Below the pieces are notes generated by a model. The model did no database searches. It saw only the letters and a list, made by a program, of their open reading frames with translations, and was not told the DNA's origin. Below are positions 294 through 61,653 of a stretch of 61,735 bases of DNA, in pieces (the stretch's first letter is position 1; every line of letters starts with the position of its first letter). The translations under genes and the position numbers were made by a program. The stretch is from Chlorobiaceae bacterium (lineage in GTDB: Bacteria; Bacteroidota; Chlorobiia; Chlorobiales; Chlorobiaceae): contig JAFGER010000073.1 in NCBI GenBank assembly GCA_016931495.1, forward strand, positions 1 to 61,735, written 5' to 3'.

Positions 294-1439
294 ATGACTA
301 TTGTTGGGGTTGATTTTACACATAATTATAATTATGGCGGTATTGGTACTTATACTAGAGAACTGGTCAGAGAAATGTCGCTTTTGCATCCGGAGGTTCA
401 TTTTTGGTTGGTGACACAATTTAATAAAAGTATTCGTTTTAAGGAGCTTTATGCCGGTATAGAAAATATCGATATTAAAGAGATGATGCCAAGTAATCTT
501 TTTCTTGGTAAAGGGTTGAAGAATGCTGCGGATTTGGTGAGGCGATGTATCTGGCAACAGGTCTCACAAAAGATTGATCTGATACATTTTACATACCCGG
601 ACTATTATGTCTCTGGTCTTAATAACTCGATATCGACTATTCACGATATTATTCCCCTGTACATCTCAAAATATAAAGATATTGATCGACAGAAGTTGGG
701 TAAATACAGGATTGATAAGATTATAAGGGAGTCGCGTCGTGTTATCGTGCCCTCGAAATTTGTTAAAGGTGAGTTGGAAAAGTATTTTCCTTTGTCAATA
801 GGAAAGACTTTCGTTATTTATGAGGGAATAAAGGATTTGTTTAAATGTTGTTCTGTTGATTATGAGGTATTGAGGAAATATGCTATCCCTAAAGGAATGC
901 CTTTTTACCTCTATGTAAGCAGATTGGAGCAAAGAAAGAATCTTGATTATATTTTAGAGGCGTTCAGGATGCTTCCTAATTCGTACAGAAAGGAGGTTAG
1001 TTTGGTCGTTATTGGTAATGGTAATGAGCGTCTAGTTGTGGCCTTAAGGAATAAAATTCTGGAATTAGGTATCGAAAGGTCAGTTTATCACCTGCAGGGT
1101 GTTCCTGATGTTGATTTACTGCACTTTTATAATGCCGCTACAGCTTTGGTTTTTGTGTCATATTCAGAAGGTTTTGGGCTTCCGCTGGTTGAGGCTATGA
1201 ATTGTGGTTGTCCATCAATCATTTCGAATGTGTCATCTCTTCCTGAAGTAGCCGATGGAGCAGCGTTGCTTGTTGATCCTTATAATGTTGAGCAGATCAG
1301 CCATGGGATGGAAAGGATGATTGACGATTCAAATTTACGAGAGAAATTGAAAAATAAGGGGCTCATGGTAGCAAAACGCTACACATGGAGCAAGGCTGCA
1401 AGTGAAACTATTGCATTATATCAGCAAGCACTTGCTTGA
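294..1439 (+). CDS. GT4-family glycosyltransferase
   Basis: This 381-residue protein is a probable retaining glycosyltransferase of the GT-B fold, expected to act on the cytoplasmic face of the inner membrane in surface glycan assembly. The N-terminal part opens with MTIVGVDFTHNYNYGGIGTY, the usual acceptor-side strand and Gly-rich turn. The C-terminal donor domain contains YVSRLEQRKNLDYILEAF (about 205-222) and the E-x7-E motif in SEGFGLPLVEAMNCGCP (about 291-307). The ATG has no good Shine-Dalgarno close by; taagagg lies about 16 bases upstream. The gene is strongly AT-rich, pointing to horizontal transfer. The sugar and acceptor cannot be read from the sequence. Confidence 0.88.
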   Translation: MTIVGVDFTHNYNYGGIGTYTRELVREMSLLHPEVHFWLVTQFNKSIRFKELYAGIENIDIKEMMPSNLFLGKGLKNAADLVRRCIWQQVSQKIDLIHFTYPDYYVSGLNNSISTIHDIIPLYISKYKDIDRQKLGKYRIDKIIRESRRVIVPSKFVKGELEKYFPLSIGKTFVIYEGIKDLFKCCSVDYEVLRKYAIPKGMPFYLYVSRLEQRKNLDYILEAFRMLPNSYRKEVSLVVIGNGNERLVVALRNKILELGIERSVYHLQGVPDVDLLHFYNAATALVFVSYSEGFGLPLVEAMNCGCPSIISNVSSLPEVADGAALLVDPYNVEQISHGMERMIDDSNLREKLKNKGLMVAKRYTWSKAASETIALYQQALA

Positions 1440-1661
1440 ATTGTCAAGTATGAATTAAAACTTTTGAAACTATAAATGATCTAGTAATAAACGGAGAAGG
1501 GTAATATATAACTTGATTTTTTACTAGAGAGCTTCTTAAACTGGTAACAGATGGTCCTGCGGAGTGTATTGTCAGAAAAAAATATGTTGAAAAATTAAGG
1601 GTTTTAGAGGTTTTTGATAATAGTTTGGAGCTGTTTTGTTTATTTTATAAATGATATAGAT

Positions 1662-2813
1662 ATGAAGATCGCTGTTGATTTGTTGAGAGGGAGAGCAATG
1701 ACTGGGAATGAGGTGTATACTCAGGAGCTTACAAAAGCCCTGGTTAGTATGTATCCTGAAAATGAGTATTACGCTATTCTTTATATGAATAAGCGAAGGG
1801 AGGCTGAGCGCGCACTAAGAAATACAGTGTCAGTAAAGTATCTTAATGTACTTCCGCATGATTTGTTGCTTGGTAAGAAATTTAAGAAGCTTGTTTCAGA
1901 TTTTTCCGGGTATACAAAGTGGATGATAGCAAAAAACGTTGATCTTTATCATTGTACCAATCCACTCAACTATCCTTTTGGAATAAAAAATGGGGTTGTT
2001 ACTCTGCATGACTTGATAGCTTTACGAAAAGAGCCATGGGCCTCATCGGGATCCAAACTTTTTTACCAGGAGAATATTCAAAAGATATTGAGAGAGGCTC
2101 GTGTTATTTTGAGCGTTTCTGATTTTACCCGAAAAGATGCAATAGAGCGGTATCCAGAAATTGCCGATAAAATCTTTACCACGCATCTTGCCGCAAATCC
2201 TGTATTTCATGTTGCTCAAATCGATAAAAGCTATCTTTATAAATTTGGTGTGAAGGACCCTTCGAAGCCTTATATTTTATCGGTTGCTGAGATTCAGCCA
2301 AGAAAAAATATAGGCGGCCTTGTTAAGGCATTTAAAGCGCTGCCTGAAAAAATAAAAAAAGAATATCAGTTGATATTTGTTGGTAAGACAAAGTATGATA
2401 AGGTACAAAAAGAATTCAAGGAAGAGATCTTAGGTTTAAGAGAAAAATATGAAATATATCATCTTGAAAATATTCCTCTTGATGATTTGGTTAGACTATA
2501 TAATACAGCGCATCTGTTTGTTTATCTATCCTTTTTTGAGGGGTTTGGATTGCCAGTTATCGAAGCGATGAGCTGCGGCTGTCCGGTTTTGACATCCTGT
2601 ACGACATCTCTTGGTGAGGTTGCCGGAACAGCTGCTTTTACGGTAGATCCTCGTAATCATGATGAAATAGTATCAGCATTGCAGAAGTTAATGGAAAATG
2701 ACTTGGTTCGTACTCAGTATCGAGAAAAGGGTTTGATTCGTGCAAAGAATTATTCATGGGAAAAAACAGCTCAATTGACGATGGATGCCTACAAGAAAGC
2801 GTTAATAATGTGA
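1662..2813 (+). CDS. GT4-family glycosyltransferase
   Basis: This GT-B fold glycosyltransferase is 383 residues long from the chosen ATG at 1662 (MKIAVDLLRGRAMTGNEVYT). A TTG at 1614 would add 16 residues and has an AGAGG upstream, so it cannot be excluded. The shorter form matches the N-terminus of the neighbouring GT4 protein. The donor domain shows SVAEIQPRKNIGGLVKAF and the E-x7-E motif in FFEGFGLPVIEAMSCGCP. It is a distant paralog of the gene at 294-1439 and equally AT-rich. The two were probably acquired together as part of one glycan module. Confidence 0.87.
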   Translation: MKIAVDLLRGRAMTGNEVYTQELTKALVSMYPENEYYAILYMNKRREAERALRNTVSVKYLNVLPHDLLLGKKFKKLVSDFSGYTKWMIAKNVDLYHCTNPLNYPFGIKNGVVTLHDLIALRKEPWASSGSKLFYQENIQKILREARVILSVSDFTRKDAIERYPEIADKIFTTHLAANPVFHVAQIDKSYLYKFGVKDPSKPYILSVAEIQPRKNIGGLVKAFKALPEKIKKEYQLIFVGKTKYDKVQKEFKEEILGLREKYEIYHLENIPLDDLVRLYNTAHLFVYLSFFEGFGLPVIEAMSCGCPVLTSCTTSLGEVAGTAAFTVDPRNHDEIVSALQKLMENDLVRTQYREKGLIRAKNYSWEKTAQLTMDAYKKALIM

Positions 2814-2820
2814 TTGTATT

Positions 2821-3891
2821 ATGCTTAAATCTCTTAAGAAAAAATGGGCTATTTATGGGTCAGGTTATTATCATGTACTTCGTTATTCCAGGCAGGTTCA
2901 TAATAAAAAATTACTGATAGTTCATTTTGATCATCTTGGTGATGTGTGTACACTGATTCCGGCGATATATCCTCTTGTCAAAAAATATGATATAACTGTA
3001 TCCTGCAAGTCGGGTCTTGAGGGTGTATGGCGAGAATTTCTGCCTATGGTAAAGGTCGTTCCTTTAAAAAGTTCTGAATGGTCTGCAACCAGGGTTATAG
3101 AGCAGCAGGGCGAATTGTTTGCGGCAGAGTATGAGGCTGTGATTATTGCTACTATTGCTCCTTATTCTGCCTTTTATTCATCCCTGATAACGGCCGGTAA
3201 AAGAGTTGGTTTAATAGAAGGAGGGCGCTACTATAAGGGGGCTCGTCTGCTTTATGATAAAGTATATGATGCTCAGCTCGATGAGCATGTAAGGTATCGT
3301 TATCCTGCATTGCTCAGTATAATAACAGGAGAGTTTAGCCCTTATGAAAAACCTCCATATGTTTCGACACCCCAACCGACAAAAACCCTGTTGATCCATC
3401 CTGGAGGCAAGTGGAAGCCTCGACGCTGGCCAATTGATCGGTATATGTCTGTTGCACAAGAAGTTGTTGAAAAATACGGTTTTCAGTGCCAGTTCCTTGT
3501 GCATGAATCTGAGGCTGATTTGCGTGCTTATGTAGAACGATATGTTAATGGTAAAGATTTACTTCTGCGACTTACCAGAAATGTTTCGGAACTTGTTCAG
3601 GCAGTTAAAGATTGCTATGTTTTTCTGGGAAACGATTCTGGGCCCGTTCACCTTGCCAATTTGATGAACAAAGAGTCTGTTGTTCTTTGGGGTCCAGGAA
3701 ACTATAATCGCATTCATCCATACGGGGAAAATAATGAGATTATTATAAGGGATATAGATTGCAGGCCATGCAGGCAATATCAAAATGATGAGTATTGCCA
3801 ACGTGGTGAAAATATATGTTTGTTATCAATCAGTGTTGAAGAAGTGTTTGCTGCAGTTGGAAGAAAAATTGAGAAGATATGGCAAGATTAA
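2821..3891 (+). CDS. GT9 heptosyltransferase-like glycosyltransferase
   Basis: This 356-residue protein belongs to the GT9 (ADP-heptose:LPS heptosyltransferase) family, which transfers a sugar to lipopolysaccharide core or a similar acceptor at the inner membrane. The N-terminal motif VHFDHLGDVCTLIPAIYPL matches the family's loop between the first strand and helix. The donor domain has IHPGGKWKPRRWPIDRY (about 193-209) and FLGNDSGPVHLANLM (about 263-277), both hallmark motifs. The C-terminal part has the CRPC...C cysteine pattern often seen in the family. It starts 7 bases after the preceding GT4 gene, so the two are co-transcribed. It is AT-rich like its upstream neighbours. Confidence 0.88.
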   Translation: MLKSLKKKWAIYGSGYYHVLRYSRQVHNKKLLIVHFDHLGDVCTLIPAIYPLVKKYDITVSCKSGLEGVWREFLPMVKVVPLKSSEWSATRVIEQQGELFAAEYEAVIIATIAPYSAFYSSLITAGKRVGLIEGGRYYKGARLLYDKVYDAQLDEHVRYRYPALLSIITGEFSPYEKPPYVSTPQPTKTLLIHPGGKWKPRRWPIDRYMSVAQEVVEKYGFQCQFLVHESEADLRAYVERYVNGKDLLLRLTRNVSELVQAVKDCYVFLGNDSGPVHLANLMNKESVVLWGPGNYNRIHPYGENNEIIIRDIDCRPCRQYQNDEYCQRGENICLLSISVEEVFAAVGRKIEKIWQD

Positions 3892-4013: not shown

Positions 4014-6008
4014 TTACGTTGATGCGTCAGCAGCCTGCGTATCACCCGTTTTTCCTGCAAACTGGATATCGTAGAGCATTTTATAGACGCCGTTCTTTTC
4101 GAGCAGCGAGGCGTGATTGCCTGATTCGACCACCTTGCCGCGCTCCAGGACAATGATCTTGTCGGCATTTTTGACCGTTGACAGCCGGTGGGCGACAACC
4201 AGCGCCGTGCGGTTTTCCATTGCGTGATCGATGGCCTGCTGCACCACCTTTTCCGACTCGTTGTCGAGAGCGCTGGTCGCCTCGTCGAAAATAAGCAGCT
4301 CCGGGTTTTTGACCATGGCTCGGGCGATGGCGATGCGCTGGCGCTGCCCGCCGGAGAGCTGGATGCCCCTGTCACCAATCATGGTGTCGTACTGATCGGT
4401 TTTATCCATAATGAACCGGTGTGCATTGGCCAGTTTTGCCGCTTTTTCAATTTGGTCGCGTCCAATTTCCTCATGCACGCCATAGGCGATGTTCTGCTCG
4501 ATGGTGTCGTTGAACAGAATCACCTCCTGACTGACCACGCCGATCATTTTCCTCAACTGCTTGTAATCAAACTCTCGAATGTCGATGCCGTCGATGGTTA
4601 TGCGTCCCGAATCGACGTCGTAGAACCGCATCAGCAGATCGACCGCCGTTGACTTGCCGGAACCTGACTGGCCGATGAGCGCCACCATTTCTCCTTTTTT
4701 GATTTCAAAGGAGACATGGTCGAGAATGTTTGGCGCATCAGCTTGCTCCTTGTTGTATTTGAAACAGACATCCTCGAAACGGATCGCGTTGCTAAAGGTG
4801 CTGATGCTTCGTGTGCCATTGACGATGGCCGGTTCGGCGTCAAGCACCTCAAAAAGCCGTTCGACAGAAATGATGCCCGTCTGGATGGCCGTGTTCGCAT
4901 CGCCAAGCTGCTTGATCGGCCCCATCGTCGAATAGAGGGTGAAGGCGAACACGAGCAGCTCGTTGGCTGTCATAACGCCGTTGAAAACCTGCAAGCCACC
5001 GAACCACAGCACCATGGCGATGGCCGCGATCATGAGCGTTTCGTTCAACGGGCCGATCATGTTTTTGAGCTGCGAAATGCGTATGCCGAGCTTGCGGAAA
5101 TCTTTGGTGAACTCCTTGAATTTTCTCAGTTCGACTTCTTCAAAAGCGGTCGATTTGATCACCTTGATGCCGTTGAACTTCTCCTGAAGCACAGAGTTCA
5201 TATTGCCCATGTTGACCTGATATTTGCGGGCCAGTCCTCTTATGTTCTTGCCGATCATGCGGACGAACACAAAAATAAAAACCGAGGTAACTGCTGAAAA
5301 AAGAGTCAGTTGCCAGCTAAGGGCGAGCAGTACGGCCAGAAAGACGATGATGGAAAAGGGGTTCTGAAGGAAGTTGACAAAGGTTGAACTGATACTGCTG
5401 TTGACATTCTCGACATCGTTATAGACGTAGTTCATCAGGTTGCCGACCCGGTTCTTGTTGAAGTAGTCGAGCTGCATTTCGATGATGCTGCTGAACACAT
5501 CGTCACGGAGTTTTTTTGCGGTTTTGGTCTGGATGCGGAAGATGATCTGCTTGTTCAGATAGACGAACAGGTTTTTCAGGGCGAATGCTGAAATGAGGAA
5601 GAGGCAGATTTTCAGCAGCGTCTCTTCTCTGGTCGGGGCGCTGAACAGCGCCTGGAACTTTTTGAGAGCCCAGTTTTTGAGCTGCTCGGCCTTGCCCGCG
5701 GTTTTGCTTTGCACGGTGCTTCCGCCGGCATTCCGGGATGGCACGGTCTGGCCGGGGGTGGTCGCCGGTCGGCTCTCTGCTTGCTGCAATTTGAGTCCGG
5801 GGCTGGTATTGCCGACGCCTGCCGGAGCGCCAGCACGAGCCTGTTGGGATGGGGTAAAGACTTCATTGAGCAGCGGTAGAATCGAGTAGATCGAAACGAC
5901 GCTGAACAGCGAGGTGAGCATGCTCACCACAATGACCAGAGCAATTTTTCCTTTCGACGGAGCAAGATATTTCAGTATTCTGATGAGTAACTTCATGGAC
6001 GAGCACAT
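4014..6008 (-). CDS. MsbA-type lipid/LPS flippase ABC transporter
   Basis: This is a half-size ABC exporter of 664 residues with a fused transmembrane and ATPase domain, of the MsbA/LPS-flippase type. The ATPase part has Walker A GQSGSGKST, signature LSGGQRQRIAIARA, Walker B LLIFDEATSALD and the H-loop VAHRLSTVKNAD. The membrane part carries a long Pro/Ala/Gly/Gln-rich, low-complexity loop of about 80 residues after the first membrane segment (about 50-130), which standard MsbA lacks. Start choice is uncertain: ATG at 6008 (MCSSMKLL) or ATG at 5996 (MKLLIRIL), the latter better spaced from an AAGGGA upstream. It lies opposite to its neighbours within the polysaccharide locus. The likely job is flipping lipid A core or a lipid-linked glycan. 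Confidence 0.88.
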   Translation of the reverse strand: MCSSMKLLIRILKYLAPSKGKIALVIVVSMLTSLFSVVSIYSILPLLNEVFTPSQQARAGAPAGVGNTSPGLKLQQAESRPATTPGQTVPSRNAGGSTVQSKTAGKAEQLKNWALKKFQALFSAPTREETLLKICLFLISAFALKNLFVYLNKQIIFRIQTKTAKKLRDDVFSSIIEMQLDYFNKNRVGNLMNYVYNDVENVNSSISSTFVNFLQNPFSIIVFLAVLLALSWQLTLFSAVTSVFIFVFVRMIGKNIRGLARKYQVNMGNMNSVLQEKFNGIKVIKSTAFEEVELRKFKEFTKDFRKLGIRISQLKNMIGPLNETLMIAAIAMVLWFGGLQVFNGVMTANELLVFAFTLYSTMGPIKQLGDANTAIQTGIISVERLFEVLDAEPAIVNGTRSISTFSNAIRFEDVCFKYNKEQADAPNILDHVSFEIKKGEMVALIGQSGSGKSTAVDLLMRFYDVDSGRITIDGIDIREFDYKQLRKMIGVVSQEVILFNDTIEQNIAYGVHEEIGRDQIEKAAKLANAHRFIMDKTDQYDTMIGDRGIQLSGGQRQRIAIARAMVKNPELLIFDEATSALDNESEKVVQQAIDHAMENRTALVVAHRLSTVKNADKIIVLERGKVVESGNHASLLEKNGVYKMLYDIQFAGKTGDTQAADAST

Positions 6009-9267: not shown

Positions 9268-10302
9268 TCAGCGTGGATTTGGGGCTTTGCTTTGCCGGAA
9301 ATGGTTGCGCAGCAGGGTTGCCATCTGCATCTGAACCCGCTCGCGTTCGTAGGTTGAAAGGAAGTGCTTCAGGCTTTGTTCACCCATGCCGAGGCGCTGG
9401 GCATGATTGGAGACGAGGGTGTCGAACGCAGCCTCCCACTCTTCGTTGGAGGTGGCGAGCAGGCCGCTTTTGCCGTGGATGACCGCGTTCATGTTTGCGC
9501 CTACTGCCGAGGCCACGACCGGTTTGCCGTGCGCCATGTATTGCAGGAGCTTGAAAGCACACTTGCCCCGGCTCCACTCGTCGTCTTCCAGTGGCATGAT
9601 ACCGATATCGATAGAGTCGAGCCAACCGGCTTCGGCCTCTTTCGACCACGGCACGAACTCCCAGCGGGTTTTGAGGCCTTCGGGCATCTTGCCGCTCATC
9701 ACCGAAAAACGAACCGAAGGGTGGCGCTGCTGGATCGCCGAAGCGGCCCGGTCGATCGTCTCAAGGAAATAGAGGTTTCCGCTGTTTCCGATCCAGCCGA
9801 TGGTGACCGGCCGGTCAGCCGGGGCCTGAAACAGCGGTTCTGGATGCTTTTTGTAGGCGGTCGGGACGATGAACGTGTTGTGAAAATTGAACTGTCGGGC
9901 GTAGGCTGCTAGTGCGTCGCTTCCGGCAAACACGAGCGACGAGCGCTTCAGGACGGCATTCAGCCGCCGAATGGTCTGCTTCGAGCCGGGGTGCGTAGGC
10001 TTGGGTTTGGTTTTTCGATAACTTTCAACGGCGTAAAACGCGTCGTCATAGTCGTAGATCAGGCGGCTGTTTTGCGCGATGATGGAGGTGAACAGAGGCG
10101 AAAGCGGCTTGCGTTGCAACCAGACGTAGTCGTAGGACTTGCTCCGGAGCGCAATCGAAAGCTTCTGCGGATAGCTCTTGCTGGTGATGCGTACCGGGTG
10201 AAAATCGATGCCATACTCCTTCCAGAACGGCAGGAACTGGGCGACCCGGTAGCGGTAACTGGCCTGGTTTTCGGCGATATGCAGGCAGAGAATCCTGATC
10301 AT
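9268..10302 (-). CDS. GT4-family glycosyltransferase
   Basis: This 344-residue GT-B fold protein starts MIRILCLHIAENQASYRYRV, with ASYRYRV typical of a subgroup of group 1 glycosyltransferases. Central features are RLIYDYDDAFYA (about 80-91), VFAGSDALAAYA (about 126-137) and TIGWIGNSGNLYFLE (about 158-172). The donor site is DIGIMPLEDDEWSRGKCAFKLLQYMAHGKPVVAS, in which the usual E-x7-E is replaced by a K/R-G-K-x-x-K-L-x-Q-Y-M form. That variant is well known in this subgroup. It is GC-rich and resembles core genes. The substrate is unknown. Confidence 0.87.
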   Translation of the reverse strand: MIRILCLHIAENQASYRYRVAQFLPFWKEYGIDFHPVRITSKSYPQKLSIALRSKSYDYVWLQRKPLSPLFTSIIAQNSRLIYDYDDAFYAVESYRKTKPKPTHPGSKQTIRRLNAVLKRSSLVFAGSDALAAYARQFNFHNTFIVPTAYKKHPEPLFQAPADRPVTIGWIGNSGNLYFLETIDRAASAIQQRHPSVRFSVMSGKMPEGLKTRWEFVPWSKEAEAGWLDSIDIGIMPLEDDEWSRGKCAFKLLQYMAHGKPVVASAVGANMNAVIHGKSGLLATSNEEWEAAFDTLVSNHAQRLGMGEQSLKHFLSTYERERVQMQMATLLRNHFRQSKAPNPR

Positions 10303-10562: not shown

Positions 10563-11306
10563 ATGAAAACAAGGGTGGTGATTCTCGGCTCGAAGCCTGG
10601 GGCTGATATTCCGGAGGGTGAGGCGATCTGGTGCGCCAATGGCTCCATTGGCTATTACAAGCAAGAGGTCAGCCGCTTCCCGAAGGTGGTCAGCGTGCTG
10701 AATCCGGATATGATCCATCCGAAAGTGCGCCGGCAAGGGGCTTCGGGTAGGGAGTTTTATGAGCAGCAATACAGGATGATTCTTGATTCGCGGCCCGACC
10801 GGATGATTCTGACCCGAACCAGCAGCTTCGATCTGGTTAAAGGTGAACTTGACGCAGCGGCGTTTGAGGCGCCGGTCAGTGCGATTTCGATCTACGAGCG
10901 GCGGCTGCTGGTTGGCAGGATCAGTGGCTGCTACGATCCCATCGTGACGAGTGATTTTTTCGGCTTGCCGAACAAGACCAAAATACGCTATGCCGGTTCG
11001 CTGGCGAGCACGTTCCTGAAGCGCCTGCTTGACAGAAAAAAGGATTGCGGATCGGCTTTCCGGCCTTCGACAGGCATTCTTGCTCTGGCGCTGGCAATCG
11101 ACGAATACGGCCATGATGCGGACTATGTCATCTGCGGTATCGGCTTGCAGAAGCGGGTCGAGTATCTCGATGGCAGGAACACCGCCAAACGGGCGCTTCA
11201 GCCACATGTTTATGCCGATATCAAGGTGCTCCGCAAGCTCGCCCGACGCTACTCGCTGTTCACCACCGAGCCTGAGCTTGCCTGGCTGATTTCGCCATTG
11301 CGCTGA
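10563..11306 (+). CDS. Uncharacterised protein, remote GT42 sialyltransferase-like (paralog 1)
   Basis: The chosen ATG at 10563 gives 247 residues starting MKTRVVILGSKPGADIPEGE. A longer frame from 10380 is not supported, because the paralog at 16558-17331 begins at the same point. The N-terminal strand plus GSKP turn resembles the nucleotide-binding start of GT42 sialyltransferases (GNGPS). PSTG at 168-171, GIGL, a following Tyr, and H215-V-Y-A-D219 followed by IKVL line up in order with the SGVY, GIDF-Tyr and catalytic His-x4-D motif of Campylobacter Cst-II. I infer a glycosyltransferase of that fold acting in the surrounding glycan locus. This is a motif comparison by eye, not a database match. 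Confidence 0.6.
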   Translation: MKTRVVILGSKPGADIPEGEAIWCANGSIGYYKQEVSRFPKVVSVLNPDMIHPKVRRQGASGREFYEQQYRMILDSRPDRMILTRTSSFDLVKGELDAAAFEAPVSAISIYERRLLVGRISGCYDPIVTSDFFGLPNKTKIRYAGSLASTFLKRLLDRKKDCGSAFRPSTGILALALAIDEYGHDADYVICGIGLQKRVEYLDGRNTAKRALQPHVYADIKVLRKLARRYSLFTTEPELAWLISPLR

Positions 11307-11494: not shown

Positions 11495-12223
11495 ATGGTT
11501 ATGGAAGGTGAAAAAGAAGACGTTAATCTGTTATGGACTGGTGGATGGGAATCTACTTACCGGCTGTGTGAGCTGATTTTTTTGAAAAAAAGAATTGTGA
11601 ACCCGGTTTATATACTGGACCCTGAAAGAAAGTCATTTAGAGAAGAAATTAAGGCTATGGTCGCCATTCGGGGGGAGATAGTAAAAAGAATTTCTTCTGA
11701 TGCATCTTTGTTGAAGCCTCTTCAGATAGTTATAAAGGATGATATTCCACCGAATAAGATTATTACGGAGATGTATGACTCCATTGTAAAAACTTATGGC
11801 GGATTGGGGCGTCAGTTTGAGTGGCTTGCAAGATATGCTGATTGGAAGGATTTGTACAGACTTGAGATTGGTCTTGAGGGTAATACAAATTCTCCCAGAC
11901 GTCCTGTATATGCTCAACTTGAAAAAGAGTTAATTATTAAGGATGAGAGTATGATTTTGGGGAACAAGTTGGACGATCAGTTATTTGATTTTTTCCGGCG
12001 CTTCAGTTTTCCTGTATTTAATTTGAGTAAGGACAAAATATTGCAATTAGCCAAAGGTCAGGATTTTTATGATTTAATGCTGAAAACGTGGTTCTGTCAT
12101 AAGCCTCGAAATGGAAAGCCGTGCGGGAGGTGTTACCCATGTGAGCAGGTGATGCATGAAGGTATGAGTTTTAGAATCCCGTTATCGGGTAAAGTAAGGT
12201 ATGCTTTTAAGAAATTGTTTTAG
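11495..12223 (+). CDS. QueC-like PP-loop ATPase in a glycan locus
   Basis: This 242-residue protein resembles 7-cyano-7-deazaguanine synthase (QueC) and related PP-loop enzymes, which adenylate a carboxylate and replace it with nitrogen. Near the N-terminus NLLWTGGWESTYRL (about 11-24) is a variant of the PP-loop SGG-x-DS. The C-terminal part has TWFC201, then C209-G-R-C212-Y-P-C215, the four-cysteine zinc site of QueC. MILGNKLDDQL replaces the usual central region. The gene is AT-rich, and a GNAT-like gene starts 5 bases after it. The location suggests it amidates or otherwise modifies a sugar or lipid-linked intermediate rather than making queuosine. That is inference. Confidence 0.7.
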   Translation: MVMEGEKEDVNLLWTGGWESTYRLCELIFLKKRIVNPVYILDPERKSFREEIKAMVAIRGEIVKRISSDASLLKPLQIVIKDDIPPNKIITEMYDSIVKTYGGLGRQFEWLARYADWKDLYRLEIGLEGNTNSPRRPVYAQLEKELIIKDESMILGNKLDDQLFDFFRRFSFPVFNLSKDKILQLAKGQDFYDLMLKTWFCHKPRNGKPCGRCYPCEQVMHEGMSFRIPLSGKVRYAFKKLF

Positions 12224-12228
12224 GAAGC

Positions 12229-13230
12229 ATGGGACTTGTAAAAATTGTAGAATTGAAAGTGGTTCGGGGAAAAGAAAGAGTCTCTGGTGAATATCTTAAA
12301 ATACTTTTTTCTGGCAGTCGTTCGGATTTCGATTATATAACGAAAAAAGTATTTGATGGAGATTTTTCTGTTATTGCTCGCAGTAAGATGCCAATGAGCC
12401 TTTTTTTGCTTATGGCCAGAAGCAATTTTTATCAATGTGATTTTGCTCTGTTTCAGTACAGAAGATCTTCTTCAGTAAGGTTGAAAGCGTCAGAGTATTG
12501 TCTTCCTCTTTGGGTGGGCACTACGATATCATTGCCATTGCAGGTGAAGACCAATTCTGCTAAAAACGATATACGAATTATCAGGAAAAATAATCTTCAG
12601 TACAGGGTGACTGATTCTTTAGAATCTATCGATGATTTTTTTGTGAATTTTTGGGTGCCAACCGTAAAAAAACGTTACCCTGAAAAAGATGCAAAAGATA
12701 TTCAAAAAGAGCGCAGAAGCTGGAGTGAATATCGATGTGAGCTGCTTATGGTGAGTGATGGTGGGTGCGATGTATCCGGTGTCCTTATTCGTTATGATGA
12801 TGATTGTCCTTATCTCTGGAGAAATGGATTGAAAAATGGAGATTTGTCTTTATGGAAAAAAGGCGCAATAGCTGCCACGTATTATTATGGTGCTTTGTAT
12901 TTGGGGTCAAAGGGATATAAAGAATTATATCTTGGGTTGTCAAGGGGTTTTTTATCGGATGGAGTGTTTCAGTATAAAAAAAAGTGGGGTGGCGCTGTCA
13001 AGGGTAGAGACCGATATGCTTTTGGTTTGAGGGTATTCAATGATTCAGCAGGGGTTCGTAAATTTTTGACAAACAATCCTGTTTTCTCCTTTTATAATGA
13101 CGGATTGTATTTGACGGTTTTTACCGAGGGCGCGGAGAATCGGGATAAGAATAAATATCTTCTGGACGGCCTTGATGGGGTAAGGTTTGTTGATATAAAT
13201 GCCATGTCGTTTGGTAAAAAAGAACGATAA
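12229..13230 (+). CDS. Acetyltransf_6 (BioF2/FemAB)-like acyltransferase
   Basis: This 333-residue protein looks like a GNAT-fold acyltransferase of the Acetyltransf_6 / FemAB group. A first half carrying DFALFQYRR is followed by a second half with AIAATYYYGALYLGSKGYKEL, LGLSRGFLSDGVFQYKKKWGG (about 222-262). That stretch is the typical helix-strand-helix-YK-x-x-W-G pattern of these enzymes. It starts 5 bases after the QueC-like gene, so the two form one unit. A combined activation and N-acylation of an amino sugar is possible. The gene is AT-rich. No catalytic residue is certain in this family, so the function is an assignment by fold only. Confidence 0.62.
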   Translation: MGLVKIVELKVVRGKERVSGEYLKILFSGSRSDFDYITKKVFDGDFSVIARSKMPMSLFLLMARSNFYQCDFALFQYRRSSSVRLKASEYCLPLWVGTTISLPLQVKTNSAKNDIRIIRKNNLQYRVTDSLESIDDFFVNFWVPTVKKRYPEKDAKDIQKERRSWSEYRCELLMVSDGGCDVSGVLIRYDDDCPYLWRNGLKNGDLSLWKKGAIAATYYYGALYLGSKGYKELYLGLSRGFLSDGVFQYKKKWGGAVKGRDRYAFGLRVFNDSAGVRKFLTNNPVFSFYNDGLYLTVFTEGAENRDKNKYLLDGLDGVRFVDINAMSFGKKER

Positions 13231-13260
13231 TAATCATGTTCTTGGTTCTCTTGAGTTGGG

Positions 13261-14301
13261 TCAAGCGTTCTTTTTTAATTTATTGTATAAGTTGAGCGAT
13301 GGATTGTTATGCTCTTTCCAGTAATTGATCTTATGCTCCCACTTTGCGCCAAGAAGAAAGTCGATTTTTTTTGGTGACAGCTCAAGCCTGCCGGATGCCG
13401 GATAGTGTGTTAATTCTCCAAAATATATTTTATTATTGATTTCATACAGGTCAACTCTTACAAAGTCAAATGGTCTGGATAGCTTTTCGGCAATAGCAAT
13501 CATTTTTTCAAGCATGATAGGCTTTTCTACCTTTGGTCCGTATTTGTTTTTCCATTGTATGGTTTGGTATTGCCATTTGGTGTCATAAAAACTGCATGTC
13601 AGTTCGTCTTTGCGATCGCTATAAACCTGGATAAGTTCGCATTGGCCGTTTATCATCAGGAACTTGAAGTCTTTCAGCGGTGTTTTGCCGGAATCCTCGA
13701 GAGATTTTTCTATGATGAAGAGTCTTGGGATATTTTGATAAGCCCATTCATAGGCAAAAAGACCGTATGGTTTTGATAGCCAGTGGTTGAGTTGCTTTAT
13801 TATGCTATTCTTTTTTGCTGGATGGTTTTTGTCGATAAAGATGTTTGTTTTTGATGCATGATTGGTTTTGATGACATAGGCTTCGGGCAATTTTTCAAAC
13901 GGGATTTCCTTGGGATTATGCCCAACATACAACAGTGGAACAAGTATTTCGTTTGCTGTTTTGCTTCCTAATGTCAAACGGATGTATTCTCTGACTCTGT
14001 ACTTGTCGGCCGTGATCGTCAGGAGAGGATTTCTGTCGTTGAGTTTTTTCCAGACGATTTTCTGGTTAAGGCTTTCAGGCTTGTCAAGATCAAGATGATA
14101 GCCAAGTTTTGTGAAAAAACGTTCTTTTTCCTTTTTGTGTTTTGTGATTTGTTCTCTTAAAGAAAAGATATGCCAGTTTGCGGCTCGAAAAAACTCCTTA
14201 ATTTGAAAAGAGTTGTAATGCGATGGTTTCTTTCGGGCAGGGGAAGCAAGAGATTCTATCTGCTGTATCATATCCATCCGTACTGACTGGTTTTTGATCA
14301 C
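13261..14301 (-). CDS. TupA-like ATP-grasp protein
   Basis: This 346-residue protein matches the ATP-grasp TupA family (PF14305), found in capsule, teichuronopeptide and exopolysaccharide clusters. Recognisable segments are TADKYRVREYI (about 95-105), EAYVIKTNHAS (about 142-152), DFKFLMINGQCELIQVYSDR (about 212-231), PFDFVRVDLYEINNKIYFGELTHYPASG (about 276-303) and a C-terminal LGAKWE. The Lys, Asp and Glu positions of the ATP-grasp site are present. Known or supposed activity is ATP-dependent ligation of an amino acid to a glycan or peptide. It converges with the QueC-like/GNAT pair and shares their AT-rich composition, so the three may be one imported module. Confidence 0.8.
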   Translation of the reverse strand: MIKNQSVRMDMIQQIESLASPARKKPSHYNSFQIKEFFRAANWHIFSLREQITKHKKEKERFFTKLGYHLDLDKPESLNQKIVWKKLNDRNPLLTITADKYRVREYIRLTLGSKTANEILVPLLYVGHNPKEIPFEKLPEAYVIKTNHASKTNIFIDKNHPAKKNSIIKQLNHWLSKPYGLFAYEWAYQNIPRLFIIEKSLEDSGKTPLKDFKFLMINGQCELIQVYSDRKDELTCSFYDTKWQYQTIQWKNKYGPKVEKPIMLEKMIAIAEKLSRPFDFVRVDLYEINNKIYFGELTHYPASGRLELSPKKIDFLLGAKWEHKINYWKEHNNPSLNLYNKLKKNA

Positions 14302-14954: not shown

Positions 14955-16091
14955 TCATGCCACAAGCAGCTTGTTCATCGCCGTGGCGAGTGCTTCGGGT
15001 TCAATGTCACTGACCTGGCCGGTCGTCGAGATGACCAGCTCGTACGGCACGGCGTAGGGGCCGAAGCGCGAGATATCCTGCGGCGCTTCGCGATACAGGC
15101 CGGCGATGGGGATGCCGGCTCCCGAGGCGACATGCACCATCGAGGTGTCGGGCGTGACCAGCAGCCGGAGCGTCGCCACGATGAGGCTCGCTTCGTACAG
15201 GTTGCGGGTGGGCGGTGTGGCGATGACGTTCGGGCAGGCGGCTTCGAGGCGGCGCTTTGCTTCGGTGTCGCCTGGCCCGGAGAGCACCACGAAGCGTTCA
15301 CCGGCAAAGCGGTCGAGCAGTGTTTTCCACTTCGGTTCCGTCCAGAGGCGGTTGGGCTGGCCAGCACTGATGTTGATGCCTATCGGCTTTGCGCTTTTCA
15401 GCCGGGGCAGCAGCTGTTTGACCTCCTCCGATACCGGCATTGCCGGAAGCGACGGGCGGCAATCCCCGACTCCGGCGGGAATGCCGAGCACCTTGAGCAG
15501 GGCGCAGTTTTTCAGCGCCATGTGGCTGTGGTACTCCATATCGATCAGCCAGTCGTACAGCCCCTCGTGAAACGGGTTGGCGTGGCCGACCTTGAAGCGC
15601 GCCGGAATGATGGCGGTCTGGAGCAGAAAGTGGGTCGATGGGTGATCCTTGGTGTTGAACAGCAGGTCAAACCGTGCCGAGCGCACCGCTCTCAGATAGC
15701 GTAACGGCTTTTTTTTTGCCATGTGCACCGCGGTCACCTCCGGATCGTTCATGAAGAATCCCGCGGAGGCGCGGCTGAAGGCGATGATGTGGATCCGGAG
15801 ATCGGGAAACGCCCGGCGCAGATTCCGGATGAGCGGGGTGAGCAGCACGCAATCGCCGAGCTTCTCCTGGGCGAGGATCGCGATGGAGTTCAGCGGCCCG
15901 CTGAATGTGGCGCTGCCGCTTCTTGCGGGCAGGAGGCGTTGCAGCAGGCCTGCAAAGGCCTGACGGAACTGCCGTTTTTTCTTTTTTCGGGGCTTCATCT
16001 CCGGGCTGATTTTCCGGGAAACATTCAGGATTCTGCGTTCATGATCGCGTGATTGAGGAATCAATGTACGCCATTTTTCATCTTTATGCAT
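14955..16091 (-). CDS. GT9 heptosyltransferase-like glycosyltransferase
   Basis: This 378-residue protein is a second GT9 family enzyme of the locus. A basic N-terminal tail of about 65 residues (KPRKKKKRQFR) precedes the domain, which starts SIAILAQEKLGDCVLLTPLIRNL. The donor half contains PIGINISAGQPNRLWTEPKW (about 245-264), FVVLSGPGD, and LVTPDTSMVHVASGAGIPIAGLY (about 320-342), the family's nucleotide-sugar motif in a T-P-D-T-S form. It is GC-rich, in contrast to the other GT9 gene at 2821-3891. The start may be one of the internal Met codons, for example the MKPRKKKK position. It likely adds a sugar to LPS core or a related acceptor. Confidence 0.85.
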   Translation of the reverse strand: MHKDEKWRTLIPQSRDHERRILNVSRKISPEMKPRKKKKRQFRQAFAGLLQRLLPARSGSATFSGPLNSIAILAQEKLGDCVLLTPLIRNLRRAFPDLRIHIIAFSRASAGFFMNDPEVTAVHMAKKKPLRYLRAVRSARFDLLFNTKDHPSTHFLLQTAIIPARFKVGHANPFHEGLYDWLIDMEYHSHMALKNCALLKVLGIPAGVGDCRPSLPAMPVSEEVKQLLPRLKSAKPIGINISAGQPNRLWTEPKWKTLLDRFAGERFVVLSGPGDTEAKRRLEAACPNVIATPPTRNLYEASLIVATLRLLVTPDTSMVHVASGAGIPIAGLYREAPQDISRFGPYAVPYELVISTTGQVSDIEPEALATAMNKLLVA

Positions 16092-16557: not shown

Positions 16558-17331
16558 ATGAAAAGAATTGTCGTTATCGGCTCGAAACCGAATGCGGTCA
16601 TTCCTGACGGCGATACTGTTTACTGCGCGAATGTTTCGATCGTGTATTATGCCGACCAGGTGGCCCGATTCAGACAGATCGTCAATGTCATAACTCCGAA
16701 GGCCATTGCCGATCAGAAGCCACGAAACAGCTCTGGCGAGCAGGATTGCTATACAAAGCGGTGGGAGGCGATGCTGGCCGCATGGCGGGCGCAACTGGTC
16801 ATTCTTGAGAGCAGCAATGCGAGCCGGATGATCGAAGGTTTGCGGAACGCCGGCTATGATGCTCCGATAAGCTCGATCAGCCACCAGGAACGCCGCAAGC
16901 TTGTTTCGCGGGTTTCCGGATGCGACGATCCGATTCTCTCCGCCGAATTTTTCCGTCTTCCGCCAAAACTGCAAGCCAGGTATGCCGGTTCCGCTATCAG
17001 CATCACGCTGAAAAGGATTTTCGATCAGGGCAAAACCTGCAATCCCATTTTCAGGCCATCGACAGGGATCATCTCCTTGCTCTACGCTCTCGATCAGCAT
17101 GGGCCCGACTGCGAATATGTTGTCGCGGGCATCGGCATGAATAATCGCAGTGTCTATATCCATTCCGAACGCACTTCGGCGCAACGCACTTCCGGCGCTT
17201 CTATCCCGCCGCATGTGTTCGCGGATCGTAAAGTTCTGCAAGCCGTCTCGAACAGATACCGCATCACGACCACTGAGCCCGAATTGATGGGCATCTTGCC
17301 GCCATTTGCAGGCGGGGAGCATAGCCGATGA
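16558..17331 (+). CDS. Uncharacterised protein, remote GT42 sialyltransferase-like (paralog 2)
   Basis: This 257-residue protein is a clear paralog of the one at 10563-11306. Both start with a strand plus GSKP turn (MKRIVVIGSKPNAVIPDGD), share ISGCYDP/VSGCDDP, FRPSTGI, GIG and a HV-[FY]-AD segment, and end with TTEPEL. PSTG is at 167-170 and H219-V-F-A-D223 follows, with GIGM and a Tyr between. These landmarks match the order of the GT42 sialyltransferase active site. The gene is GC-rich like its paralog, so the pair may be old in this genome. The function is inferred as a glycosyltransferase of the same glycan locus. Confidence 0.6.
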   Translation: MKRIVVIGSKPNAVIPDGDTVYCANVSIVYYADQVARFRQIVNVITPKAIADQKPRNSSGEQDCYTKRWEAMLAAWRAQLVILESSNASRMIEGLRNAGYDAPISSISHQERRKLVSRVSGCDDPILSAEFFRLPPKLQARYAGSAISITLKRIFDQGKTCNPIFRPSTGIISLLYALDQHGPDCEYVVAGIGMNNRSVYIHSERTSAQRTSGASIPPHVFADRKVLQAVSNRYRITTTEPELMGILPPFAGGEHSR

Positions 17332-20793: not shown

Positions 20794-21846
20794 TCAGACG
20801 TTGAAGAATTCACGGTACCAGGCCACGAAGCGGTTGATGCCCTCCTGGACCGGGGTCGATGGTTTGTAGCCGAGGTCGTTGACCAGGTCGGTCACGTCGG
20901 CGTAGGTGGAGGGCACGTCGCCTGGCTGGATGGGCAGCAGGTTCTTTTCGATGGTTTTGCCGAGCGCCAGTTCGATGGCCTCGATGAACTCCATCAGCCT
21001 GACCGGCTGGTTGTTGCCGATGTTGTAAACGCGGTACGGGGCCGACGAGGTGCCGGGGTCGGGCGCTTTGCCGCTCCACTCCGGATTGGCTTTCGCCGGA
21101 TTGTCGATGACGCGCACCACGCCTTCGACGATGTCGTCGATGTAGGTGAAGTCGCGCTGCATGTTGCCGTAGTTGAACACGTCGATCGGGCGGCCTTCGA
21201 GCGCGGCCTTGGTGAAGAGGAAGAGCGCCATGTCGGGCCGTCCCCAGGGGCCGTACACCGTGAAAAAGCGCAGGCCGGTGGTCGGAATACCGAACAGATG
21301 GCTGTAGGTGTGCGCCATCAGCTCGTTGGATTTCTTGCTGGCCGCGTACAGACTCACCGGGTGATCGACGTTATGGTGCACCGAAAAGGGCTGGCTCTCG
21401 TTCAGGCCATAGACCGAGGAGCTGGAGGCGTAGCTCAGGTTGCCGACGCTGTTGTGGCGGCACGCTTCGAGCAGGTTGATGAAGCCGGTGATGTTGGACT
21501 TGATGTACGCCTCGGGGTTGGTGAGCGAGTAGCGCACCCCGGCCTGCGCGGCGAGGTTGCAGACTGCGTCGAACTGTTCATCGGAAAAGAGCTTGTCGAT
21601 GCCCGCCTTGTCTTCGAGATCGAGCTTGACGAAGCGGTAGTTCGGATACTTCGCCGAAGTGACGAGCTTGCCGTACTCGATGGCGTCGCGCCCGATGCCC
21701 GAAAAGGCGAGCCGTCCGTACTTGACCCGCTGGTCGTAATAGTCGTTGATGTTGTCGAGGCCGACCACTTCGTCGCCCCGTTTGGCAAGGCGTTCGGCAA
21801 GGTGGAATCCGATAAATCCGGCCGTGCCGGTGACAAGAATTTTCAC
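20794..21846 (-). CDS. UDP-glucuronate 4-epimerase-like NAD-dependent epimerase
   Basis: This short-chain dehydrogenase-type sugar epimerase is 350 residues from the GTG at 21846 (VKILVTGTAGFIGFHLAERL). A longer frame to 22092 adds 82 residues without family resemblance and is rejected. TGTAGFIG is the NAD-binding Gly-rich loop, DNINDYYD the acidic end of strand 2, and YASSSSVYG plus YAASKK supplies the Ser/Tyr/Lys catalytic set. The NINDYYD and GIPTTGLRFFTVYGPWGRPDMA segments are characteristic of UDP-GlcA 4-epimerase, making UDP-galacturonate. It would supply a nucleotide sugar to the adjacent glycosyltransferases. Confidence 0.88.
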   Translation of the reverse strand: MKILVTGTAGFIGFHLAERLAKRGDEVVGLDNINDYYDQRVKYGRLAFSGIGRDAIEYGKLVTSAKYPNYRFVKLDLEDKAGIDKLFSDEQFDAVCNLAAQAGVRYSLTNPEAYIKSNITGFINLLEACRHNSVGNLSYASSSSVYGLNESQPFSVHHNVDHPVSLYAASKKSNELMAHTYSHLFGIPTTGLRFFTVYGPWGRPDMALFLFTKAALEGRPIDVFNYGNMQRDFTYIDDIVEGVVRVIDNPAKANPEWSGKAPDPGTSSAPYRVYNIGNNQPVRLMEFIEAIELALGKTIEKNLLPIQPGDVPSTYADVTDLVNDLGYKPSTPVQEGINRFVAWYREFFNV

Positions 21847-60246: not shown

Positions 60247-61653
60247 ATGGAGGTGTCTTTGAGTCCGCGCGTGTTTATTTCTTATAGCTGGTCGTCTCCA
60301 GGACATCAAGCTCGTATTCGCCAATGGGCCGAACAGATGGTGAGTGATGGTGTTGATGTTGTGCTTGATGTTTGGGATCTCAACGAAGGTGACGACAAGT
60401 ACGCGTTCATGGAGAAAATGGTTACGGATGAGTCTGTGACCCACGTATTGGTATTTTCTGATTCAGAGTATGTTACAAAAGCGGATGCCCGTAAAGCAGG
60501 TGTTGGTACCGAATCACAAATCATATCTCGCGAGGTATACGCTAAGGTTCAGCAGAGCAAGTTTATTCCAGTTGTCTGCGAATTTGACGAAACTGGTGAG
60601 CCATGTCTTCCGATTTTTCTGAAATCGCGTATCTGGATTGATTTTTCAAGTCCTGAGGCGGCGAATGATAACTGGGAAAAACTCATTCGTGTTTTGTACG
60701 GAAAGCCTACTTACAATAAGCCATCTCTCGGAAAAGCACCCACTTACATTACAACAACCGACACTGTCCTGGCTAGTCCTGCTGTTACAAAGTTTGTGGC
60801 GCTCAAACAGGCAATTATTCAAGAGAAGCGAGGGCTTAAGCTTTATCGGCAGGATTTTCTTGATGCTTGTTATTCTTATGCGGATGCTTTACGTATTCGG
60901 GAGCGACCTGATGAGATGAACATGGGGGAGCGGGTATTAGAGGACTGTGGTAAGCTCAAGTATGTTCGCGATCATATTGTGGATTGGGTGCTTCTCGAAT
61001 CCGAATTCAATCAATCGGAAGAGTTTGGAGATGCACTGATCGAGATGCTGGAGCAATTGCTTGACCTGAAGTCACGCCCATCTGAGGTCAATTCTTGGAG
61101 CGATGTTTGGTTTGAGGCGCATCGTGTTTTTGTATATGAGACATTTCTTTACATCATCGCTGCTCTCATAAAGACTAGCGCGTTCAGTACCCTTCACCTT
61201 GTTCTTACAAGTCATTATCTTTTACCTGAGACGGAGCGTTATGGGGATAATCATTTTGGAACATTCGGGTTATTCTATGGCCATTCCAATACTCTACAGA
61301 TTCTCGCGCCGGAAGGCCGCCGTCTTAATGCTCCAGCGGCAGAGCTTATAAAGCGGCAAGCGGACCGAGCGGACGTGCCATTTTCGAATGTTATTCAGGC
61401 AGAGTTGCTTGTGCTACTTATGGCGTTTATAACCGATGTTGATCACTGGTATCCTCAAACTCTTCACTATTCATCGTACAACTATAGATTTCCGTTCTTT
61501 ATAAGAGCTGCACAGCATCGCCATTTTCAGAAGCTAGCACAGATCACCGGAATTGATAGTGCAGAACAATTGCGCAAAGCCGTTAAGGAAGGTCATGAGC
61601 GTCTTCAGGTGAAAAGTTGGCATAGCTTCTCGCTGGGGGATTGCACTTTTTGA
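60247..61653 (+). CDS. SEFIR-domain protein with unrecognised C-terminal region
   Basis: This 468-residue protein has an N-terminal SEFIR domain, a TIR relative: PRVFISYSWSSPGHQARIRQWAEQM (about 7-31), VVLDVWDLNEGDDKYAFMEKM, VLVFSDSEYVTKADAR, and IPVVCEFDETGEPCLPIFLKSRIWIDFS (about 117-144). The remaining 300 residues, rich in helices, are not recognised. SEFIR/TIR proteins in bacteria are often antiphage or virulence effectors. TTG at 60259 is an alternative start with a perfect GGAGG five bases upstream. The gene is AT-richer than the core and abuts an IS end, which fits a mobile accessory gene. Confidence 0.75.
   Translation: MEVSLSPRVFISYSWSSPGHQARIRQWAEQMVSDGVDVVLDVWDLNEGDDKYAFMEKMVTDESVTHVLVFSDSEYVTKADARKAGVGTESQIISREVYAKVQQSKFIPVVCEFDETGEPCLPIFLKSRIWIDFSSPEAANDNWEKLIRVLYGKPTYNKPSLGKAPTYITTTDTVLASPAVTKFVALKQAIIQEKRGLKLYRQDFLDACYSYADALRIRERPDEMNMGERVLEDCGKLKYVRDHIVDWVLLESEFNQSEEFGDALIEMLEQLLDLKSRPSEVNSWSDVWFEAHRVFVYETFLYIIAALIKTSAFSTLHLVLTSHYLLPETERYGDNHFGTFGLFYGHSNTLQILAPEGRRLNAPAAELIKRQADRADVPFSNVIQAELLVLLMAFITDVDHWYPQTLHYSSYNYRFPFFIRAAQHRHFQKLAQITGIDSAEQLRKAVKEGHERLQVKSWHSFSLGDCTF

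Follow-up and report, generated by a model that had tools for sequence, protein, structure and literature searches.

The locus studied here raises the question of what a relative of QueC is doing among genes for a surface glycan. The window, i.e. the whole stretch of DNA analysed, comprises 61,735 nucleotides of contig JAFGER010000073.1 from a Chlorobiaceae bacterium (assembly GCA_016931495.1). Inside a glycosyltransferase-rich locus recognised with Pfam it carries three AT-rich genes, encoding a QueC-like PP-loop protein, a GNAT/FemAB-like protein and a TupA-like ATP-grasp protein. An earlier note, made from the sequence alone, had suggested that these proteins decorate a surface polymer through C–N bonds. 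According to the present analysis the three imported genes probably attach nitrogen-containing groups to a surface sugar, one of them having been remodelled from an enzyme that makes a tRNA base. The narrower reading, that they are a swappable, laterally acquired cassette whose products make amide bonds at a glycan carboxylate in a lipopolysaccharide-core-like locus, is put forward tentatively, its likelihood being judged slightly below even.

The cassette and its slot

The QueC-like protein (11495..12223, forward strand, 242 amino acids) has a TGGWES loop and a Cx8CxxCxxC site. The GNAT/FemAB-like gene (12229..13230, forward strand, 333 amino acids) starts 5 bases downstream of the QueC-like open reading frame (ORF), and the TupA-like gene (13261..14301, reverse strand, 346 amino acids; PF14305, E 1.3e-39) is convergent to both. 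The ORFs are open as the earlier note had described them, and the contrast in composition could be measured: the GC content at third codon positions (GC3) was 0.39, 0.33 and 0.44 in the QueC-like, GNAT and TupA genes, against 0.75 and 0.77 in the flanking glycosyltransferase genes. The same contrast between cassette and flanks was present in locus L142 of a congener (G002).

The slot holding the cassette is bounded on the left by a conserved GT4 glycosyltransferase gene (9268..10302, reverse strand) and on the right by a conserved gene for a GT9 heptosyltransferase-like protein (14955..16091, reverse strand), which scored far below cut-off with the NCBIfam heptosyltransferase models. Homologues of both flanks were present on one contig in 8 of the 21 genomes searched. 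Three of these eight (this genome, G002 and G012) carried the QueC-like, GNAT and TupA genes in the slot, with order and strands identical in the three species and the QueC-like and GNAT genes overlapping or 5 bases apart. Two others had a GINT1_N gene there instead (G003, and G007, where a relative of the 10563 gene accompanies it). In G006 the slot was empty (under 90 bases), a GINT1_N gene lying beyond the GT4 gene, and in G016 and G009 about 1 kb of slot had no assigned content. The cassette of G012 had a stop inside the QueC-like frame and a split GNAT match. As alternative genes or nothing were found between the same flanks, and as the copy in G012 is decaying, the module is an exchangeable, sometimes decaying insert and one of several alternatives at this slot.

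The GINT1_N proteins (PF24793, E 5e-52 to 1e-61), whose domain name derives from a sphingolipid glycosyltransferase, were located in or beside the slot at L137:9258-10226, L140:3482-4465 and L139:6029-6991.

The QueC-like protein and its partners

The four-cysteine QueC site reported for the PP-loop protein is present (C201-x8-C210-x2-C213-x2-C216; the cysteines read from the sequence are 25, 201, 210, 213 and 216), although the loop reads TGGWES instead of SGGxDS. The Pfam QueC model gave 20.9 bits, below its gathering cut-off of 22, and covered residues 171-217 only. A search of the PDB with the single sequence returned noise, and the relation emerged with a 74-row profile of relatives, which matched Bacillus subtilis QueC (PDB 3bl5) at E 2e-5 and a second PDB QueC at E 4.8e-4. 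Because the profile reaches B. subtilis QueC at this value, the relation is more than chance. The Pfam QueC model also matched 71 of the 75 relatives with E values of 0.1 or lower, and profile-profile comparison with the genome's own QueC gave E 6.3e-5 across 188 columns. The structure prediction proposed earlier as a check was informative for this product: the AlphaFold model had a predicted local distance difference test (pLDDT) score of 93.9, and its best Foldseek matches in the PDB were Cap9-CdnD (9nto; E 1.3e-5, template modelling score 0.50 by query) and QueC (E 1.9e-5, 0.45), the N-acetyl sugar amidotransferase 8wex following at rank 36 (E 3.8e-3). Judged by sequence profiles and predicted fold, the protein is a distant representative of the QueC fold, or PF06508 superfamily.

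The active site appears remodelled. The 75-row set, from which six QueC-like ORFs that lacked the motif or were of insufficient length were excluded and loci L003, L004, L006 and L008 dropped as repeats, contained none of the substrate motifs YPDC, VPxRN and YxQxHxxE in any row, and the SGGxDS loop in two rows. The zinc site had the exact x8 spacing in 43 rows and a spacing of x6-9 in 74. Residues W14, G17, Y39, R45, S47, E51, G105, Q107, W110, K179 and H202 were invariant or nearly so, but the loci on genome contigs were retrieved by searching for the peptide patterns NLLWT[GS]GW and [ML][LKY][KL]TWFCH, which inflates conservation at those motifs. In the profile alignment H202 stands opposite the tyrosine that follows the first zinc cysteine of QueC; this tyrosine, Y189, is described as essential in Escherichia coli QueC in the consulted text of a survey of PF06508 (PMC13329287). 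Compared with canonical QueC, the protein thus shares the fold, the position of the PP-loop, a conserved lysine and the Cx8CxxCxxC zinc site, but differs in the loop, in the absence of the three substrate motifs and in having histidine for the essential tyrosine. Since YPDC and VPxRN are missing from every row, synthesis of preQ0 by the QueC-like protein is unlikely.

The check proposed for a separate queuosine pathway, made with the QueC, QueD, TGT and QueF families, found a full-length QueC elsewhere in the genome (C33, E 1.6e-71), together with QueD-family matches at C68 and C33, TGT at C59 and QueF at C2. By these matches the cassette gene is not the QueC of the genome, let alone its sole one. 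The genome's own QueC retains YPDC and VPxRN and lacks the YxQxHxxE pattern. Its loop reads SSGMDS even though it is canonical by fold and score, and the SGGxDS test alone is therefore a weak one.

Of the partners, the convergent TupA-like gene was recognised with ease (PF14305, 136.6 bits against a cut-off of 25). For the GNAT-like gene the position given earlier was right; the Acetyltransf_6 label failed for the protein itself, which had no match in Pfam, and stood through a relative. This relative, matching the protein at E 9.1e-15, scored FemAB at 4.4e-6 and Acetyltransf_6 at 4.9e-5, both over cut-off. Foldseek with the AlphaFold model listed GNATs and FemX, all with E values above 0.001. 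The GNAT/FemAB label would accordingly hold only indirectly, via a distant relative and a poor model. The genome also has a second, distant TupA (C15, L086:235-1209) and a GNAT paralogue with 36% identity (C50, L084:7325-8383), both away from the cassette.

The scan of genome contigs detected 63 QueC-like loci across several phyla. Carriage by a plasmid or phage was rejected, tblastn against plasmids and phages having found nothing; a separate scan of viral contigs gave one QueC-like locus. QueC-like genes were present in 9 and TupA genes in 33 of the 394 genomes of a phylum sample, with both in 7; in a sample of 101 relatives, own genome included, the figures were 5, 5 and 4. The hypergeometric values for co-occurrence were 5e-7 and 6e-6, respectively, with kinship not removed. 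The two genes were neighbours in G000, G002, G012 and G089 among the seven genomes with both, and a TupA gene lay at most three genes from the QueC-like gene in 16 of the 75 rows. This neighbourhood required at least four changes on the QueC-like tree and at least five on the TupA tree, both trees having SH-aLRT (Shimodaira–Hasegawa-like approximate likelihood ratio test) support only and many open forks; the latter number does not support a single origin of all QueC-linked TupA genes.

The arrangement of the pair varied. The genes stood tail to tail in this genus (with GNAT between), in Flavobacterium and in the gammaproteobacterium BD1-7 (L017), while in Synergistales (L015) three QueC-like genes lay on the same strand between two TupA genes. 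In the Flavobacterium pairs and in L007 (G089), where the QueC-like stretch matches that of F. limi exactly, the two genes overlap at their 3' ends by 15-21 bases; the exceptions are L023, where they abut, and L014, which has a glycosyltransferase in between. In Chloroherpetonaceae (L010) the gene directly downstream of the QueC-like gene looks ATP-grasp-like by eye, its sole Pfam trace being Dala_Dala_lig_C at E 0.08. The search for the three genes elsewhere thus gave a divided result: the triplet recurred in two other species of the genus and the QueC-like/TupA pair also outside it. As GNAT relatives were found in 4 of the 394 phylum genomes, three of the four from this genus, the triplet as a widespread unit was rejected; it is local to one genus, and it is the pair that is recurrent.

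The nearest neighbours of the QueC-like genes (121 upstream and 106 downstream ORFs) were mixed. Glycosyltransferase models came first with 6-9 members each, followed by haem-oxygenase-like and phosphoenolpyruvate mutase models with 5 each; these labels come from profiles built on the same loci and from mechanical gene calls, which are poor in high-GC loci. Three or four QueC-like paralogues stand in tandem at L018:3004-6530, L024:7071-9836 and L015:1880-4324. At L021:7977-10429 and L022:7929-10463 in Flavobacterium, two QueC-like genes that belong to separate branches of the Flavobacterium clade stand side by side before one TupA gene, as if one copy had been added beside the other.

Proposed function and its alternatives

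Amidation of a glycan is favoured because of the genomic context, the exchange of the cassette and the reaction reported for a TupA-like amidoligase. In Campylobacter jejuni, the TupA-like ATP-grasp domain of Cj1438C is described as forming an amide between the C6 carboxylate of chain-bound capsule glucuronate and serinol phosphate (PMC11800397, PMC11800379, as far as their consulted text goes), and UDP-glucuronate was not a substrate in the consulted part of the former. Both ligases occur within a surface glycan locus; Cj1438C forms part of a fusion with a glycosyltransferase and accepts serinol phosphate or ethanolamine phosphate, whereas the TupA-like protein of the window stands alone. QueC itself activates a carboxylate with ATP and delivers it to ammonia, and Cap9 delivers it to a protein amine, according to the part consulted of PMC12424860.

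In the proposed pathway, a sugar bearing a carboxylate, for example a uronic acid, would first be added to the glycan; a UDP-glucose 6-dehydrogenase is encoded in the genome (PDB match E 2e-196). The TupA-like ligase would then, by analogy with Cj1438C, activate the glycan-bound carboxylate with ATP and join an amine to it. From its fold and motifs we infer that the QueC-like protein could use its PP-loop to activate a carboxylate for transfer to ammonia or an amine, with an amide as the product, and the GNAT/FemAB-like protein might acylate, aminoacylate or extend the added group. A broader reading, possible but doubtful, is that a QueC-fold clade spread over several phyla has turned to other carboxylates and, in glycan loci, makes sugar amides (or nitriles, by the second step of QueC) beside a TupA-like amidoligase.

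Several results weigh against glycan amidation or parts of it. No substrate or product is assigned to the pathway, which we infer. The full triplet with GNAT was seen in this genus only and in none of the loci outside it, and the model of the GNAT-like protein, for which two sequences were used, was of low quality (pLDDT 40.6). QueC-like and TupA genes were on different contigs in three (G162, G326 and G340) of the seven genomes that have both, 59 of the 75 QueC-like rows had no TupA inside three genes (some loci being incomplete), and 26 of the 33 genomes with TupA had no QueC-like gene; by the last two counts neither gene needs the other. Many QueC-like genes are in no evident glycan context; of 14 loci from the Lysobacter group, 3 yielded a glycosyltransferase when searched locally. 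The likeness of the locus to that of a lipopolysaccharide core is weak, depending on the GT9 protein and an MsbA-like ATP-binding cassette transporter (4014..6008, reverse strand; PDB MsbA E about 1e-107). Both proteins scored below NCBIfam cut-offs (the transporter 511.7 bits with MsbA, cut-off 602), and the best PDB matches of the transporter were P-glycoproteins, above MsbA. A nucleotide-sugar epimerase/dehydratase-like protein (20794..21846, reverse strand, from an internal start in a frame open to 22092) possibly serves a uronic acid. Its best PDB match was 5u4q, a dTDP-glucose 4,6-dehydratase, the next being 6zl6, which we take to be a UDP-glucuronate 4-epimerase; no NCBIfam model reached cut-off among its 25 best matches. 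The C–N decoration proposed in the earlier note is thus partly supported. Neither of the outcomes named there as refuting it was obtained, and the context, the exchange of the cassette and the TupA-like precedent favour it, but it is weakened by the restriction of the triplet to the genus and the many rows lacking TupA.

The last two facts also lend some weight to the rather unlikely explanation that the three genes came together by chance in a hypervariable locus and act on different, unrelated substrates. Against it speak the order and strands kept in three species with the QueC-like and GNAT genes in contact or nearly so, the similarly low GC of all three, and the repetition of the QueC-like/TupA pair in separate clades. 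The QueC-like protein might instead act on the N-acetyl group of a sugar to give an acetamidino group, as WbpG-type amidotransferases do. These, cluster 5 of the PF06508 survey, are likewise PP-loop enzymes of glycan loci, and 8wex was among the Foldseek matches. Their CxxC(x)6CxC signature, as given in the consulted text of the survey (PMC13329287), is nevertheless absent from the QueC-like protein, Cap9 and QueC are far better structural matches, and the neighbours scanned included no recognisable glutamine amidotransferase partner, which makes this quite improbable.

The same holds, a little more strongly, for a defence element in a variable locus, in which the QueC-like protein would join a carboxylate to a protein N-terminus like Cap9 or, by proposal, QatC. 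The locus is indeed variable, and Cap9 of type IV CBASS (cyclic-oligonucleotide-based antiphage signalling system) was the top Foldseek match, shares the zinc site and, as proposed here too, ligates a carboxylate to an amine. Cap9 nonetheless keeps motifs reading 7-deazaguanine, YPDC among them, according to the consulted text of PMC13329287, whereas YPDC is lost throughout the 75 rows, and the neighbours of the cassette are glycosyltransferases. PADLOC, run on eight window proteins covering part of the neighbours, matched the QueC-like protein weakly, as a generic QueC, gave no match for either partner gene, and recognised no CD-NTase (cGAS/DncV-like nucleotidyltransferase) or QatA/B/D partner. 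That the QueC-like protein is a second queuosine enzyme, as its zinc motif and fold could suggest, was rejected as extremely improbable: the genome has its own full-length QueC, the substrate motifs are lost, and glycosyltransferase rather than que genes adjoin.

A distinct clade of this kind, its active site remodelled and its genes repeatedly next to TupA-like ones within glycan loci, would add another repurposing of the QueC fold, and the two proteins would be a defined enzyme pair with a substrate testable in vitro. It would also be a warning that such QueC-like genes may be taken for queuosine enzymes. The PF06508 survey of 2026 reports, in the text consulted (PMC13329287), that the fold has been repurposed for defence and other pathways. 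It distinguishes ten main clusters and describes seven, with WbpG the only glycan-linked one described; clusters 7, 8 and 10, almost exclusively archaeal, are left unanalysed in that text. The QueC-like clade could form a small cluster within the 1.5% of survey sequences that remain, and part of it may be missing there because the window protein scores under the Pfam cut-off. A literature search, mainly of non-subscription papers, found none on QueC, PP-loop and polysaccharide together and, among the QueC-like titles listed, none about glycans.

The surrounding locus

Also in the slot, with host-like GC and outside the AT-rich cassette, is the gene of an unclassified GSKPxAxIPxG-family protein (10563..11306, forward strand). 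It is a paralogue of the gene at 16558-17331, both products beginning GSKPxAxIPxG...YCAN. Pfam found no significant family for either (a chance-level match for the second), and the protein of 10563-11306 had no PDB match at E 1. One relative was present in the slot of G007 and another near the slot in G016.

A second AT-rich patch, with two GT4 genes and one GT9 gene and a GC3 of 0.31-0.36, extends over positions 294-3891 and is perhaps another imported cassette. Towards the other end of the window, the protein encoded at 60247-61653 matched the PADLOC bSEFIR model at E 4e-94 and is a candidate anti-phage defence protein.

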